A DNA stretch of 64,000 nucleotides from Nostoc sphaeroides (GTDB lineage: Bacteria > Cyanobacteriota > Cyanobacteriia > Cyanobacteriales > Nostocaceae), in the NCBI RefSeq assembly GCF_003443655.1, contig NZ_CP031941.1, positions 2,165,501 through 2,229,500 on the forward strand, read 5' to 3'. The position numbers were made by a program, and so were the translations under genes. Positions 41,765 through 49,024 of this stretch are shown one piece after another; position 1 is the stretch's first letter; the number at the start of each line of letters is the position of its first letter. Under the pieces are notes generated by a model. It was not told the DNA's origin, did not search any database, and saw only the letters and a list, made by a program, of their open reading frames with translations.

Positions 41765-44700
41765 TTAATTCGGCTTACCTGTAATCGTGAATGCTGCCCA
41801 GTAGTAAGGATGATTATAAAGATTTTTATCTGATGCCATTTTACTATTTCTATATAGTTGTGTCGCTAAATAAGTTTGAATTCGTACTTCTTCAGGATGC
41901 AGATTATTTAATACATCTTCATACCATTTTGTCAATTCTCCAGCAGTTAGTTCTTTCAGCCATCGGGTTGCTTCAGCTAAGGCTGTAACTGCTGATTTAT
42001 TGGGCTGTAATCGTCGGTAAAACTCTATCATCACCAAGGCACTAGCTGAAGATTCTACACTCCAGAGAGTACTCACTACATGAGGAACGCCTTGACTCAC
42101 AAAACCAGTCACCAAACTCACATATTCGCTGCTGATAGTGTGGTTGCTAGTAGTTAAATTTTCACAAGCAGAGAGGGTAATAAGGTTGTAACTTGCTAGA
42201 TTTTGTTGGCAGATTTCATCTAGAGTAAGTTTGTCTTCACCTGCTAATGCTAATTCGGATTTTTTGGGTTCAATTAAATTATTAGTGACATGACCAGTAA
42301 AATGTAAAATGTTGTAATTATCAAATAAGGCGTTTTCAATAATATTTTTTGTAGCTTCTAACCCATGAATTCGTTGGATATTATTGAACATCTGGCTAAC
42401 AACTTCCGACTCAAGTTTAGCAAATTTAAGCGTGGGATAACCCGTACTCTCAGGATGTTCAACACTAAGCAATAATTGATTTTGCCATTGCCAAATATCT
42501 TCAGTTCTAATTGATAAACCTATTTGGGCACTAGGTAGATAGGTTACACTGAAATTTGACTCCACATTCGGCAATTCTTCCGGCGATGGGGAAGGAAGAT
42601 GGAAAAGGGTATGAATGGGCAATCTGTATAAGTCACGGTGAGGAATTAAAACCAGTTGGGTGATGCCTTCGAGTTCCTGTGCAATTGTGGAAATATTCAG
42701 GATTTCATACAACTGCAATAGCTTCTGTTCCATATCAACTCGCCAAGAATGCTGGCTTTTACTTTCTTTGTCTTGGGCCGTGCTGCGATATTCTTGGTAT
42801 TGTTGATGCCAATCTTCTAGCAAACTTTCAAATTTAATTAGGCGTTGTACTGCTTCGGGTAGGGGCAATTCATTTAGACGAATAGCGTCTTCTCCTAAAG
42901 TTATTGCCCCAGTATCTTGCATGGGTGTAAATAGGAGGATGGGTGATGGCGCTTGGTCTTTGAGAATAAATGTGTGTAGGGCAACTGGACTAATATGCCA
43001 GTAAATAATTGCTGTTGTAGAATTAAATAGTTGTTGAATTGCGCCATAATAAGGCGAGTAAATATTATCATTCCAGCCATAAAGCAGCCAGTTTAAACAA
43101 GCATTTTTGCCTTGTTCGGCAATTTCCCAGGCTTCAACTAAATCACCGGACTCTACGGCTAAATCAACTGCTAATTGATCAAAGCCTGCAAATTTCAGGG
43201 CTAACTGTTTTTTACTTTCGTCTGAGCGAGTTTCTTCACTCAATAATTGTCGCAATAAATCTGTACCGCGTTGCAGCAATTCTTGAACTTGTGTTGTTTG
43301 TCCTAAACCCATCAGCACTTTGCTTAGAGATTGTAAAACCTCTAGGTGCAACTGGGGAAAATATTCTAGTGTGAGGGTTAGCAGCGCTTGATGGTACTCA
43401 GATGCAGCTTTGCGCCAATAATCGCGGGGATTAGTATTTTTTTTGCCTTGTTCGTAGTAAGTATTAGCGATCGCAAAATGCAATCTACCCCAACCTTCTG
43501 GATGGGTATCTGTCCGCAGATGCTTTAACCCTTCCTCGTAGCTGGCTAATTTCCCTTCGTAGCCGCCCTGTTGTAAGGCGGGATTTGTCGCGGTGATACT
43601 ACTCGAAATCAGCAATGCGTCAGAGTTCAGTAAATGACCGATCGCAGTTCCTCGACCAATCCAAGCTTCCCAATAATCTTGTTTAATTTGCAAAGCGTTG
43701 TCATAACAAGCGATCGCTTCGGCAAATTGTTCTAAATAAAACAATGCTACTGCCTGATTATACCAAGCTAAGTGGAAGTCGGGTTTAATCGCGATCGTTT
43801 TTTGATAGGAGGCGATCGCTTCTTGTCTACGTCCTAAGTTGTCTAACGCTATACCCCGGTTGTACCAAGCTAAGTAGAAGTCTGATTGAACTGACAGTGC
43901 TTTATCCCAGGAGGCGATCGCTTCTGACCATCTTCCTAAATTAAACAGCACTACACCCCGGTCTATCCAAACTTCGTGATAATCTGGGTTAATTTCTAGC
44001 GCTTTGTCGTAAGATATAATCGCTTCTGTAAATTGTTCGCCGACAGCTAGGGCTATACCACGGTAATACCAGTTTTCTTGGTCTTCTGGTTCCAAATGTA
44101 GGGCTTGGTCATAACTAGAAATAGCTTCGGGTAGCCAACCTAATTTAAGCAGTGCCAAACCCTTACTAGACCAAGCTTCTTGGTAGTCTGGCTTGATTTC
44201 TATGGCTTTGTCAAAAGAAGCGATCGCTTCTTGAAAATATCCTAATTCTCCGAGAGTTCCACCGCGATTATACCAAGCTTTGTAGAAGTCGGGTTTTAGT
44301 CGTGTGGCGGTTTCGTAAGATGCGATCGCTTCATCAAAACGTTCTAAATGGAACAGCGTCAAGCCTCGGTTAAACCAATATTCTGAAAATTTTGGTTGAA
44401 GTGCGATGGCTTGGTCATAAGATGCGATCGCGCCTAACAAATCACCTGTTTTTGCTTGGCTTAGACCTTGATAAAACCACCGTTGAGCCTGGGTAACAGG
44501 ATCATCGCCATGCCGCTCAATTATACCAGGGGAATTGCTGCTTTGAACTGCCAAATTAGAAGCAAGTTGCTGGACTAAATTAGTACTTTGATCCAATCTC
44601 ACCCACAACTCATCTAATGTATTAGCCACATTTGGCTCTAAATTGGTCAAAGTGTTGTCCCAGGTTTCCACTGAGGGAGAAGTTGTTAATTCAGTTCTTT

Positions 44701-45625
44701 GTCTAGTGGAAAGGAGATTTGATCCTGTTCGACTTTGAACAACTTCATCATCATCGAACCTCAGTTGGGCTAATGAGGTGATTGAATCTTCTGCGGCGGG
44801 GAGAGGGAAATTTTCGCCTATTGTAGTTTGGGCATCATTCCTTTCATACTCAAATACCAGTTCCTCTAAATTCTGGGTGAATGCTTCCTCACTAGAGGTA
44901 TTTTCAGGCGCTGACGTTATTGGTTCAACATCTGGCTCATCATACTCCCATAATTGCTCACCTAAGCTGCGGATTAACTCTTGCCCAGGCGAACTTGGGA
45001 TAATTTCTTCATCGGTTGTGATTTCTACCACATCTGGCTCATCATACTCCCATAACTGCTCGCCTAAATTGCGGATCAGTTCTTGCCCTGGAGTAGTTTC
45101 TCTTACATCTGGTTCCTCATACTCCCATAACTGTTCGTCCAAATTGCCGAACGGTTCTTCCCCAGGAGTGATTTCTAAATCTTCTTCTGGATAATTCTCC
45201 TCATACTCTATCTGTGTGGGTGAGTTTTGCATCAGCCGGATGCCAATGTCATAAGCAACATCTCCAATTCTGCCAACACCAAGTTCCCCCAATTGCACCA
45301 TCTTTGTTGCTAAAAGCGGATTTGGTGCCGGTGAAGCTAGCAAGCTTTCGCCAAAGATCACCAACCAATCTATCCAGCGTTCAGCCGGAATGCGATTTTC
45401 TACCCGTTGCAGATACCTCAATGCCCACTGTCGTCCTCGTGCTTGATGCACGCCTTCTAACAATTGGATAAACAATTGTTCCAGATCCGCATTGGTTAGT
45501 TCTGGTAGCATCTCCACCAGATTATGTCCTCTCGCACCCTTGAGAGAACTAGCCTGCTTACTTTCAATAAGGCGCTTTAAAAACCTTTTAAGCGACTGCG
45601 ATATCCGCCTGAGCATCTGCCACAC
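41765..45625 (-). CDS. TPR-CHAT protease-like protein with WEYDEPDV linker repeats
   Basis: 1,286 residues in four parts. (1) A basic helix then a domain (about 40-135) shared with the neighbouring small protein. (2) An acidic linker (about 145-275) in which GEQLWEYDEPDV-like units recur three to four times. (3) About nine TPRs (about 380-690; WYNRGxALxxLGRxxEAIASYDKAI). (4) A C-terminal CHAT caspase-like domain (about 950-1286) with the catalytic pair visible as NILHFTGH (His about 1109) and TLSACENL (Cys about 1150). CHAT domains are cysteine peptidases, in known cases switched on by a sensor. Its trigger and substrate are unknown. No secretion signal, so cytosolic. Confidence 0.85.
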   Translation of the reverse strand: MWQMLRRISQSLKRFLKRLIESKQASSLKGARGHNLVEMLPELTNADLEQLFIQLLEGVHQARGRQWALRYLQRVENRIPAERWIDWLVIFGESLLASPAPNPLLATKMVQLGELGVGRIGDVAYDIGIRLMQNSPTQIEYEENYPEEDLEITPGEEPFGNLDEQLWEYEEPDVRETTPGQELIRNLGEQLWEYDEPDVVEITTDEEIIPSSPGQELIRSLGEQLWEYDEPDVEPITSAPENTSSEEAFTQNLEELVFEYERNDAQTTIGENFPLPAAEDSITSLAQLRFDDDEVVQSRTGSNLLSTRQRTELTTSPSVETWDNTLTNLEPNVANTLDELWVRLDQSTNLVQQLASNLAVQSSNSPGIIERHGDDPVTQAQRWFYQGLSQAKTGDLLGAIASYDQAIALQPKFSEYWFNRGLTLFHLERFDEAIASYETATRLKPDFYKAWYNRGGTLGELGYFQEAIASFDKAIEIKPDYQEAWSSKGLALLKLGWLPEAISSYDQALHLEPEDQENWYYRGIALAVGEQFTEAIISYDKALEINPDYHEVWIDRGVVLFNLGRWSEAIASWDKALSVQSDFYLAWYNRGIALDNLGRRQEAIASYQKTIAIKPDFHLAWYNQAVALFYLEQFAEAIACYDNALQIKQDYWEAWIGRGTAIGHLLNSDALLISSSITATNPALQQGGYEGKLASYEEGLKHLRTDTHPEGWGRLHFAIANTYYEQGKKNTNPRDYWRKAASEYHQALLTLTLEYFPQLHLEVLQSLSKVLMGLGQTTQVQELLQRGTDLLRQLLSEETRSDESKKQLALKFAGFDQLAVDLAVESGDLVEAWEIAEQGKNACLNWLLYGWNDNIYSPYYGAIQQLFNSTTAIIYWHISPVALHTFILKDQAPSPILLFTPMQDTGAITLGEDAIRLNELPLPEAVQRLIKFESLLEDWHQQYQEYRSTAQDKESKSQHSWRVDMEQKLLQLYEILNISTIAQELEGITQLVLIPHRDLYRLPIHTLFHLPSPSPEELPNVESNFSVTYLPSAQIGLSIRTEDIWQWQNQLLLSVEHPESTGYPTLKFAKLESEVVSQMFNNIQRIHGLEATKNIIENALFDNYNILHFTGHVTNNLIEPKKSELALAGEDKLTLDEICQQNLASYNLITLSACENLTTSNHTISSEYVSLVTGFVSQGVPHVVSTLWSVESSASALVMIEFYRRLQPNKSAVTALAEATRWLKELTAGELTKWYEDVLNNLHPEEVRIQTYLATQLYRNSKMASDKNLYNHPYYWAAFTITGKPN

Positions 45626-45804
45626 TATTGGATTTTGTTTTTCTAGATTGTAGCCATCGTTGTGTTAAAAAAATCATCAATTACGTAAAAATCCATTAGA
45701 TCGGGACAGGGCTTCCGTCGCAGGTTAGCAAAAAATATACAAAACTTCAAGAGTAGAGCATTACAACGTTACAATTTCCAAATTTGACTTTTGATGCCAA
45801 GTAG

Positions 45805-46503
45805 TTAATTGTCTGTTTGCTCTGTAGTCGATTGACCAGCAGGATATAATTGACTAATCAATGCCTGGACAAGCAATTCTGGATCGTCTGTCTCAATGGC
45901 AAGCTGTTGAGCAATTTGCTGGCGTAAGTTTTCATCCTGCTGCAACATCACAAACAATTCTTCTAGGGTGACAGTTTGGTATTCTCCCTCTGGGGGATTA
46001 TCTGGGGTATCTACTGACTCTGAGATGGGGGCGGTTAGCTCAGATGGTATCGTTGTGCTAAAAGCATCAGGCCCTTCATATTCCCAAATCGGTTCGCCTT
46101 GATTGCGTGTCAACAACTGCATCCCGATACTATAAGCAACATCTCCGATTTCTCCGATGTCCAACTCACCCAATTGCACTAACCGTGCAGCCATTTCATT
46201 ATTGGGTGTAGGTGATGCTAGCAATCTGTCGCCAAAGCGCCTTAACCACTCAACCCAGTCTTCAGTTGGGATGCGATGTTCAATATTATGCAGCCACTTT
46301 TGTGCCCACGCTTCCCCTCGTGCAAGATATACTCCTTGCAACAGTTCGTTGAAGAGAAATTCCAGATCGGTATCGGTTAAGGGTGGCGCTGGTTCTTTTA
46401 GCACATTTCCTCTAGATTTTGAGGCAGTCTGTTTTCCACCGAACAAGCTCTGAAAAAGCTTTTTGAGCCATTGAAATAGCCGCTTGAGCATCTGCTGCAC
46501 CAT
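45805..46503 (-). CDS. Stand-alone paralog of the TPR-CHAT N-terminal domain
   Basis: 232 residues. The first 145 align by eye with residues 1-140 of the downstream TPR-CHAT protein: basic start MLKRLFQWLKKLFQSLFG, then LTDTDLEFLFNELLQGVYLARG, HRIPTEDWVEWL and LVQLGELDIGEIGDVAYSIG. It carries one copy of the acidic motif, GEPIWEYEGPDA. The rest is an acidic tail with QQIAQQLAIETDDPELLVQAL and no TPR or CHAT domain. It lies 180 bases upstream on the same strand, so co-expression is likely. Function unknown; adaptor, inhibitor or substrate are all possible. Confidence 0.75.
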   Translation of the reverse strand: MVQQMLKRLFQWLKKLFQSLFGGKQTASKSRGNVLKEPAPPLTDTDLEFLFNELLQGVYLARGEAWAQKWLHNIEHRIPTEDWVEWLRRFGDRLLASPTPNNEMAARLVQLGELDIGEIGDVAYSIGMQLLTRNQGEPIWEYEGPDAFSTTIPSELTAPISESVDTPDNPPEGEYQTVTLEELFVMLQQDENLRQQIAQQLAIETDDPELLVQALISQLYPAGQSTTEQTDN

Positions 46504-46897
46504 CGAGTTTTGCTTATCCTAAGATTGTAGCGATCGCACTGGACTATGGCGCTAGTCAGTAATTAAAATTCTTTGGTCATTTGTCATTTGTCATTAGTCA
46601 TTAGTCATTCTCCCCCTGCCCCCTGCCCACTCCCTACTCCCTACTCCCCACTCCCTTAGCTAGAACAAATGTACTAAATGGTATGCTATAATTCCAATAC
46701 TTTGATATTGAAATCATAGTAGAAGGTAAGCTTTGGTTACTTGCTTTCCTGAGTGCCAAAATTCACGGCATTAGTTGAGGGCAGTAGCTCTGGCAATTTG
46801 TACAAACCAAGCAGGTACAAGAGTCTAAAATAATTGAATCCTAAACTCGACTCGGTGCTACTAATTAACTTTGAAAGGCATTGAAGTCTATTTTTCC
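46504..46897. other. Divergent promoter region of the CHAT module and dnaX
   Basis: Contains repeats of TCATTTG/TCATTAG type (about 46576-46609) and ACTCCCTACTCC-type tandems (about 46628-46657). Nothing else is recognised. The dnaX and CHAT-module promoters should both lie here. Confidence 0.45.
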
Positions 46898-49024
46898 ATG
46901 TCTTACGAACCCCTGCACCACAAATATCGCCCCAAAAGTTTTGCTGAACTGGTGGGCCAAGAGGCGATCGCTACCACCCTCACGAACGCGATCGGCACAT
47001 CTAAAATCGCCCCCGCCTATTTATTCACTGGGCCTAGAGGTACGGGGAAAACTTCTAGTGCCCGGATTCTGGCTAAATCTCTCAATTGTCTCAAAGGTGA
47101 TAAGCCCACTGCTGAACCCTGTGGCGTGTGTGAAGTTTGTCAGGGGATCACCAAGGGCTATGCCTTAGACATAATTGAAATTGACGCCGCTAGTAATACT
47201 GGTGTTGATAATATCCGCGAGTTGATTGAAAAAGCCCAGTTTGCTCCAGTGCAGTGTCGCTACAAGGTTTATGTAATCGATGAATGCCACATGCTTAGTA
47301 CGCAGGCATTCAACGCGCTACTAAAGACATTAGAAGAACCACCAAGACACGTAGTTTTTGTGTTGGCGACAACAGATCCGCAACGGGTGTTACCAACGAT
47401 TATTTCGCGCTGTCAAAGGTTTGATTTTAGACGCATCCAGTTAGAGGCGATGGTAAAGCATTTAAGTGCGATCGCCTTTAAAGAAAACATCCATATTTCA
47501 CCCGATGCTGTCACCCTGGTAGGCCAACTTGCTCAGGGAGGGTTACGAGATGCCGAAAGTTTGCTCGATCAATTGGGTTTATTAGCGGGTGAAGTGACAC
47601 CGGATCGAGTTTGGGATTTGGTAGGGACAGTAAGCGAACAGGATTTGCTGGGGCTGTTAAATGCGATCGCTCAAGATAAACCCGAAGCAGTTTTAGACTG
47701 TACTCACTACATTCTAGATCGTGGTCGAGAACCGCTAACTCTTCTGCAAAATCTTGCCGCATTCTACCGCGATTTACTGATTGCTAAAACCGCACCCAAT
47801 CGCCACGATTTGGTTGCTTGTACTCAACAAACCTGGACAGCGTTGGTTGAGTTTGCTCAATACTTCGATATGAGCGTGATTTTGGCAGGACAAAAACACT
47901 TGCGAGAAGCTGAAGTGCAAATTAAAAATACCACCCAGCCGCGTTTGTGGTTGGAAGTAACATTACTAGGATTGTTACCCAGTGCGACGATTATTCAGCC
48001 ACAAGCCCCAAGTGTTACGCAGCGAGTTAACACATCTGTTGTATCTCCAAGCTATTCTCCAGCAGTTGCCCAAAATAATGCAGTCTCTTCTTTACCTGTA
48101 GCTGAACCGCAAACAAATCATAATTCTGCAAACAATGATATAGCGGCTGCCCAAAATCAGCCCGTTACTTCACCTCCCCCAGTTGAACAACAAACAAATC
48201 ACAATTCTGCTGTTAACTCAGTTTCACCACCTACCCCAGAACCGGTATCTGTACCTGTGTCACCTGCGATCGTTGAACCAGTAACTTCAGAAGTTGTTGG
48301 GGAAGCAGAATATGACTTAACTCAGGTTTGGCAACAGATGCTTGCTAACCTCCAGCCAAAATCAAGGCAAGAAATGCTACGTCAAATGGGCCAACTCATA
48401 GAGTTCGACGGTGTTGTGGCTCGAATTGCTATCAAACAGGCATGGTATGACAAGGGTAAATGTGATCTACCGATGATTACGGCAGCTTTTCAGCAGACTT
48501 TCCAGCGTGAAATTCAGATAATTATAGAAAAAGCAACTTCTTCAAACTTTACCTCAGCCAAAAAAAATCCTCCCCCAAAAGACTCACCTCGCGTTCAGCA
48601 GCCACCAAGTCCCAGTTACAACCAGCAAATTCAGCCTCCAACGCCAGCACCACAGCTAGCAACTCCACCACCAGCGACACCAACACCACCAAAAACTGAG
48701 TCGGTAGCAAAGAATGGAAATGGCCTAAATGGAAATGGAGTAAATGGAAACGGCGTAAATGGAAATGGAGTAAATGGAAATGGAGTAAATGGAAATGGGG
48801 CAAATCGAAATGGCCTAAATGGAAATGGGGTGCAAGCTTTGCCTCCAACTGCAAAACGAACACCCGCACCTGATTGGGAACCTGACGAAGTAGCGATCGC
48901 AGCTCAACGTCTAGCAGAATTTTTCCAAGGACAAATTATTCGTTTTGCAGATGATTTCCCAGAATTTTCCGACTCCATGACTACACCTGAATGGGTAGAG
49001 GAAGCAGAAGTTGATGATGAATAA
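46898..49024 (+). CDS. dnaX: DNA polymerase III subunit gamma/tau
   Basis: 708 residues from ATG 46898 (MSYEPLHHKYRPKSFAELVG), the normal start; an open frame upstream is not needed. DnaX is the ATPase motor of the clamp loader. Walker A is GPRGTGKTSSA, the zinc module is CLKGDKPTAEPCGVCEVC, Walker B VIDECHMLS, and sensor-1 region LATTDPQRVLPTIISRCQRF. From about residue 380 a long Pro/Gln/Asn-rich tau-like region holds a further small domain (about 470-550). A 12-bp tandem (48713-48832) encodes NGNGVNGNGVNG-type repeats. No intein is present. Confidence 0.93.
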   Translation: MSYEPLHHKYRPKSFAELVGQEAIATTLTNAIGTSKIAPAYLFTGPRGTGKTSSARILAKSLNCLKGDKPTAEPCGVCEVCQGITKGYALDIIEIDAASNTGVDNIRELIEKAQFAPVQCRYKVYVIDECHMLSTQAFNALLKTLEEPPRHVVFVLATTDPQRVLPTIISRCQRFDFRRIQLEAMVKHLSAIAFKENIHISPDAVTLVGQLAQGGLRDAESLLDQLGLLAGEVTPDRVWDLVGTVSEQDLLGLLNAIAQDKPEAVLDCTHYILDRGREPLTLLQNLAAFYRDLLIAKTAPNRHDLVACTQQTWTALVEFAQYFDMSVILAGQKHLREAEVQIKNTTQPRLWLEVTLLGLLPSATIIQPQAPSVTQRVNTSVVSPSYSPAVAQNNAVSSLPVAEPQTNHNSANNDIAAAQNQPVTSPPPVEQQTNHNSAVNSVSPPTPEPVSVPVSPAIVEPVTSEVVGEAEYDLTQVWQQMLANLQPKSRQEMLRQMGQLIEFDGVVARIAIKQAWYDKGKCDLPMITAAFQQTFQREIQIIIEKATSSNFTSAKKNPPPKDSPRVQQPPSPSYNQQIQPPTPAPQLATPPPATPTPPKTESVAKNGNGLNGNGVNGNGVNGNGVNGNGVNGNGANRNGLNGNGVQALPPTAKRTPAPDWEPDEVAIAAQRLAEFFQGQIIRFADDFPEFSDSMTTPEWVEEAEVDDE
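48713..48832 (+). repeat. In-frame tandem repeats encoding (NGNGV)n in dnaX
   Basis: AATGGAAATGGAGTA-type units of 15 bases recur about eight times with small changes, giving a flexible Asn/Gly linker near residues 605-645 of DnaX. Length variation between strains is likely. Confidence 0.85.

Follow-up and report, generated by a model that had tools for sequence, protein, structure and literature searches.

What role is played by two adjacent genes of Nostoc sphaeroides, one encoding a large TPR-CHAT protein and the other a small protein that resembles its N-terminus? CHAT proteins are usually read as proteases, and the original prediction for this locus was of an undescribed protease-based response system, with the small protein as inhibitor, adaptor or substrate. 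The locus lies on contig NZ_CP031941.1, within a stretch of 64,000 nucleotides that we refer to as the window. Both open reading frames (ORFs) are present, and both are on the minus strand, as are all protein features given below. The short gene (232 aa; 45805..46503) is upstream of the long gene (1286 aa; 41765..45625), with a gap of 179 bases between them. Divergent from the short gene, across an intergenic region at 46504..46897, is a plus-strand ORF (46898..49024) that is conserved in relatives and that, from its sequence, we take to be dnaX (DNA polymerase III gamma/tau). The 36–52 kb segment covered by our ORF list presumably also holds recR, HIT and glycosyltransferase genes, and in that list no CRISPR context stood out. 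We scanned 45500–46950 for promoters and terminators and saw no excess over shuffled sequence. The intergenic region does contain short direct repeats of the GGGAGTA type and the TGACTAATGAC type at 46575–46660, and similar repeats sit behind the cut-short long gene of locus L108.

By the curated Pfam cut-off, the long protein is a CHAT protein (PF12770) with TPRs. Eight TPR stretches were matched, and the array (residues 385–655; 43661..44473) is the best-conserved part of the protein; the CHAT domain occupies residues 970–1283 (41777..42718; E 1e-41, 143.5 bits against a cut-off of 24). No Pfam, NCBIfam or PADLOC family matched the short protein, and in its own genome it matches only itself and the long protein. 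Residues 2–146 align with the long protein at 48% identity (E 2e-38), which bears out the earlier view that the N-terminal domain (N-domain) is shared, but the small protein copies more than that domain alone. Residues 136–208 give a weaker collinear match (E 0.001), the motif region gives a further match (E 0.09), and a segment related to the C-terminal helical segment of the short protein stands before the TPR array of the long one. Because these later stretches match as well, the short protein has the appearance of the long protein minus TPR and CHAT.

The short protein is built, in order, of a basic amphipathic helix (residues 4–21; 46441..46494), a helical N-domain (about residues 36–134; 46102..46398, borders drawn by eye on the alignments), the heptapeptide WEYEGPD (residues 140–146; 46066..46086), an acidic linker and finally a helical segment some 45 residues long (about 176–220; 45844..45978), the helices being judged from sequence. 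The long protein has an N-domain with its own amphipathic helix (residues 1–134; 45224..45625) and an acidic linker with three tandem PGQELIRNLGEQLWEYDEPDV-type units (44831..45178), followed by the helical segment, TPR array and CHAT domain. The helix of the short protein has a net charge of +4 and a hydrophobic moment of 0.71, a moment reached by one of 5000 shuffles; it ranks second among 214 stretches in the short protein, and its counterpart ranks first among 1,268 in the long protein. It is retained in all 31 aligned short proteins (moment 0.64–0.75), and is a probable membrane contact. Profile searches of the PDB with both alignments returned weak, scattered matches, the best (E 0.012) to a designed protein, so that the N-domain appears by sequence to have no convincing solved relative. 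Pfam scans of all N-domain members likewise gave weak scattered matches and no family above cut-off.

As predicted, an acidic WEY motif is common to the two proteins, with one copy (WEYEGPD) in the short protein and three WEYxEPD copies (45107-45127, 45032-45052 and 44930-44950) plus a degenerate FEYERND in the long one. A DNA pattern for WEYxxPD has just these four full matches in the 6,684,490 bases of the genome, all within the two genes, and the reversed pattern has none in the same bases, which places the motif far above chance. The acidic tail of the window DnaX (46898-49024), which also has a repetitive NGNG(L/V/A) stretch, includes DWEPDEV, probably a coincidental resemblance to WEYDEPDV.

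The short form regularly accompanies the CHAT form, as had been supposed. Among 35 genomes of the same genus (its own included; counted by hand), the long gene was found in 34 and the short gene in 33, one of them partial; the sole long gene lacking a short one begins at base 355 of its contig, and in one genome neither gene was found. A single stop is present in five of the 33 short matches. Across all loci found with the short protein, a long gene follows downstream in 70 of 76. Three of the other six stop at a contig edge, and three (L076, L095 and L097) lack the long gene despite 6 kb of downstream sequence. One single-contig genome of 3.8 Mb (G196) has a short gene as its one match and no long gene, and its genus-mate G254 has no match. 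Our N-domain tree is built on few columns and leaves many forks open; in it, the 13 short and 13 long copies from Nostocaceae group together (SH-aLRT 99), and within this clade the long (SH-aLRT 93) and short (SH-aLRT 85) copies are sister groups. The pair therefore stems from one old tandem duplication that preceded the divergence of the sampled Nostocaceae. Another family, f57, has a short and a ∼1,300-aa member in all five genomes drawn, 0.7 and 1.7 Mb apart in two of them and on separate contigs in the other three. In the tree the f57 clades do not join the Nostocaceae pair, which may mean that the split happened twice. Of the f57 proteins read, all three long ones lack His, Cys or both from the catalytic pair discussed below, and two of three short ones contain WEYDGPD.

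The N-domain occurs in 116 of 117 Nostocaceae genomes, with two or more matches in 114, and in 101 of 120 genomes of the order. It was found in 19 of 145 genomes of the class (12 of these 19 belong to the same order, and four of the rest have weak short matches) and in 30 of 98 genomes drawn from across the phylum; none of the 58 genomes in that draw from outside the class had a match. In our searches the family was confined to photosynthetic cyanobacteria. This is the distribution of a core gene of one cyanobacterial branch rather than of a defence island.

Does the long protein cleave anything? In the window strain both catalytic residues are present (H1112, 42290-42292; C1154, 42164-42166), in register with H615 and C658 of Csx29, although the direct match is weak (phmmer, E 0.04; NCBIfam Csx29 profile, E 5e-11). 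Mutation of H615 and C658 abolished cleavage of Csx30 by Csx29, according to PMC10028731. We compared 71 long proteins, one from the window and the others from 70 loci, of which L115 and L116 are identical. Both catalytic residues are retained in 33 of them, 31 carry a substitution, and in seven the region is missing in frame. The long gene of L111 is broken, that of L101 has a stop within the stretch and was omitted from the alignment, and at six loci (Dolichospermum, planktonic Anabaena, Cuspidothrix and one uncultured) it stops short of the pair, after about 980 aa. A quick tree of 66 rows, based on residues 375–960, requires at least 14 changes at the His and at least three at the Cys, a count that cannot separate loss from gain. 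Intact genes almost invariably encode the His as CAT, from which a single change leads to most of the R, Y, Q and N codons seen. As a control we used another CHAT group; of 60 Nostocaceae genomes, 22 match it to the level of E 1e-50. The pair is intact at all 29 readable loci from these 22 genomes (a further locus, L251, is cut before the His, and the query, which belongs to L242, was counted once), versus 33 of 64 orthologues of the long protein (Fisher P = 6e-7, with rows that are not independent). The pair is also present in six CHAT proteins of other types that carry the N-domain (L131, L133, L134, L135, L236 and L237); another such protein, L130, lacks the His. Because the control CHATs and these six proteins have the pair, loss is the simpler direction. 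The pair has changed repeatedly, and CHAT cleavage has probably been lost many times.

Selection on the CHAT fold does not follow the pair. For the catalytic half, intact proteins have a median omega of 0.14 and substituted ones of 0.17; the median for the TPR array is 0.12 in intact, 0.09 in substituted and 0.08 in cut-short proteins, with overlap among the individual pairs; the N-domain of the long protein is under looser constraint than TPR and CHAT (medians 0.29 and 0.26). In a separate comparison of nine pairs, of which eight gave an omega value, four pairs of long genes that end before the catalytic residues have omega of 0.14–0.19, such that purifying selection persists there too. The CHAT fold is, then, under purifying selection even where the catalytic pair is dead. 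Proteolysis may still matter in about half of the lineages, since His and Cys are present in the window strain and in 33 of 71 rows, and the window strain itself may have protease activity. CHAT genes occur in all 15 genomes checked, and hence another CHAT protease could act on the motif. The window genome has 14 CHAT genes; two other genomes (G344 and G378) have 54 and 43 CHAT matches, respectively.

Conservation of the WEY motif among orthologues, which the original prediction relied on, holds for the short protein and for part of the long-protein family. WEYxxPD is present in 73 of 76 short proteins, and the short protein keeps it even when its long partner is missing, cut short or substituted. 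In long proteins the full motif is present at 36 of 37 loci of the Nostoc clade versus none of 33 other loci, although a shorter W-E/D-Y/F core is found in 20 of these 33, in up to six copies, and this core count picks up WEY units in the long proteins of L091 and L107. The linker of the long protein thus retains a related repeat in part of the family. Outside the Nostocaceae we scored 53 distinct proteins, taken from the best matches and hence not a random sample, with a pattern that is strict in requiring position 5 to be G or S (the W-Q/E-Y of f57 long proteins lacks the G). A WEYxGPD-like motif was seen in none of seven proteins with CHAT, 18 of 40 uncut proteins without CHAT and two of six cut by the locus end; the split is by CHAT only, as our TPR pattern under-detected TPRs. 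Given its presence in CHAT-less relatives and absence from the seven with CHAT, the full motif does not track CHAT. In four proteins (L137, L226, L233 and L234) it lies one or two residues short of the C-terminus. One CHAT-less relative adjoining dnaX (L122, 5697-6950) has several tandem SPQVIYVDAE units in its linker, where WEY units would be.

The divergent arrangement with dnaX recurs widely. dnaX lies within the fetched stretch at 67 of 76 Nostocales loci and at 10 of the 20 loci L118–L137, and the two genes are head to head at every inspected locus that has both. Among the 86 genomes whose domain matches were listed (of 101 matched), compared with the best dnaX match per genome in 120 genomes, a domain gene lies within 8 kb of dnaX in 48, representing 19 families, and is divergent from it in all 48. 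Three more divergent links (in G047, G310 and G333) fall outside these 48. The remaining 38 of the 86 have no dnaX link, which in some cases may reflect a contig end or the listing of a second copy. As a measure of regional conservation, the gene on the opposite flank of dnaX is linked in 36 of 114 genomes, always convergently (of 115 genomes, G378 was omitted for its partial match), so part of the dnaX link may be inertia. Nonetheless, 28 of the 48 domain-linked genomes lack the opposite-flank link, three of them having no match to that gene at all. For this reason the bond with dnaX looks stronger than its surroundings, with regional inertia contributing. In family f61 (loci L236, 6640-10868, and L237, 3758-9474), dnaX is divergent from a run of two or three consecutive domain genes, including one that has the CHAT pair intact. 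Two dnaX genes (L097, 2545-5757; L076, 256-2730) contain a long intein-like insertion, and in the order-wide search many dnaX matches start near query residue 127.

Several known systems bear comparison with this locus. Like Csx29, the TPR-CHAT protein of type III-E CRISPR (Craspase), the long protein has a TPR array followed by CHAT, with a matching catalytic pair; unlike Csx29, it has an extra N-domain and a motif-bearing linker, its pair is often changed in orthologues, and it scores 42.3 bits against the NCBIfam Csx29 cut-off of 300. HetF of Anabaena PCC 7120 also combines CHAT and TPR in a filamentous cyanobacterium. As described in PMC8406250, HetF has a divisome and developmental role and places CHAT at the N-terminus (aa 1–555), followed by a TM domain and then TPR. 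The C-terminal CHAT and the N-domain of the long protein set it apart from that layout. Cyanobacterial pseudo-orthocaspases are caspase-fold proteins that are conserved despite loss of the His-Cys pair (PMC6426788), a parallel to the changes seen here. They are, however, p20 proteins of peptidase family C14, mostly with YS or YN, whereas the long protein is a CHAT protein with many varied changes within one orthologous group. Finally, effector-associated domains (EADs) resemble the N-domain in being small helical domains encoded in neighbouring genes (PMC7159879). Compared by description, the present family differs in having two copies in the window genome, a core distribution, and no sensor ATPase or varied effectors that we could see. 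EAD systems have a copy fused to a core component (VMAP, iSTAND, Ubl or GAP1); the short protein has no other domain, and ten relatives scanned by Pfam showed TPR or TPR-like repeat models, CHAT, or nothing above cut-off. Nor do the two proteins correspond to a known defence system in PADLOC, where the short protein had no matches and the long protein only partial ones to TPR, BovA (CHAT region, E 0.004) and PrimPol models (best E 2e-8, a TPR model).

How, then, should the pair be understood? An active CHAT protease, with the short protein as its substrate, inhibitor or adaptor and WEY as docking or cleavage site in the manner of Csx29/Csx30, would account for H1112 and C1154 being present in register with the Csx29 residues, for the conserved tandem pair, for the motif common to both proteins and for the 33 intact long proteins. 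It fits poorly with the 38 of 71 in which the pair is substituted or missing, with persistence of the motif in short proteins whose partner is substituted, cut short or absent, with absence of the full motif from all 33 long orthologues outside the Nostoc clade, and with its occurrence in 18 of 40 CHAT-less relatives versus none of seven with CHAT. We consider this explanation unlikely, and the idea of a protease-based response system is mostly unsupported by these data. The catalytic pair might instead have been misread, with some other residue catalysing, in which case the substituted proteins would still be proteases. Selection on the fold in substituted proteins and the weakness of the direct Csx29 match are in line with this, yet the His is in register with one that Csx29 requires and is kept in all 29 readable control CHATs, and seven long genes lack the catalytic half in frame; we regard a misread pair as highly improbable.

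A conflict or regulated cell death module built on EADs, in which a domain copy couples sensor to effector, is suggested by the adjacent genes sharing a small helical domain, one with a caspase-fold domain, and by the richness of some cyanobacteria in such systems, as described in PMC7159879. Against it, the family is near-universal in Nostocaceae and often syntenic rather than patchy, the window genome has two domain copies, the ten relatives scanned by Pfam revealed no sensor ATPase or other effector, and the short protein has no PADLOC match, making this very unlikely. The proteins could also be replisome factors, expressed from the dnaX intergenic region and helping to place or regulate DNA polymerase III. 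The 48 divergent links in 19 families, and the 28 that hold where the opposite-flank neighbour link does not, speak for such a role. Shared promoters can by themselves preserve divergent pairs, however; the opposite-flank neighbour is often kept too, 38 genomes lack the link, and no replication domain was found. This possibility has a modest claim to consideration, although we think it improbable on balance.

Our preferred explanation, held tentatively and at somewhat under even chances, is that the long gene encodes a membrane-tethered TPR scaffold of the cyanobacterial core and the short gene a partner without TPRs; WEYxGPD would serve for docking, and CHAT would be an optional module that is often dead. 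An everyday scaffold is in any case more likely than a protease-based defence. According to this scaffold model, the two genes are tandem duplicates of a cyanobacterial family often head to head with dnaX. The N-domain and basic amphipathic helix would tether both proteins to the membrane and let them co-assemble. The TPR array, to judge from its conservation, would be the working part of the long protein and hold client proteins. WEYxGPD would be a docking peptide, most simply for the TPR groove or for a shared outside partner; the short TPR-less protein would present it in trans, and in the Nostoc clade the long protein would present several copies in cis. Because the WEY core is found in 20 of 33 long proteins outside that clade, the role in cis may be wider than proposed. 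CHAT would be a retained fold that acts as a structural or ligand-binding module, with cleavage optional. The distribution suggests that the pair would serve core physiology, not accessory defence. Several observations count against the scaffold: the motif is missing, when G or S is demanded at position 5, from 22 of 40 uncut non-CHAT relatives, the N-domain of the long protein is less constrained than TPR and CHAT, 38 of 86 genomes have no dnaX link, and His and Cys are both kept in the window strain and in 33 of 71 rows. A bolder and distinctly unlikely version is that this cyanobacteria-only family, found beside dnaX in 19 families or more, forms a membrane scaffold tying the replisome or chromosome to the envelope, and that it has split twice (in Nostocaceae and f57), each time giving a docking partner without TPRs and a long protein whose caspase fold is decaying as a catalyst.

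In the open-access literature searched, we found nothing on CHAT pseudoproteases, on cyanobacterial links between dnaX and tetratricopeptide proteins, or on inactive caspase-like CHAT in cyanobacteria. Selection on the fold, the TPR array and the partner gene persists through repeated changes of the catalytic pair, and CHAT therefore probably has uses that need no cleavage. These data point to an unnamed, near-universal protein family of the Nostocaceae with a deep link to dnaX.
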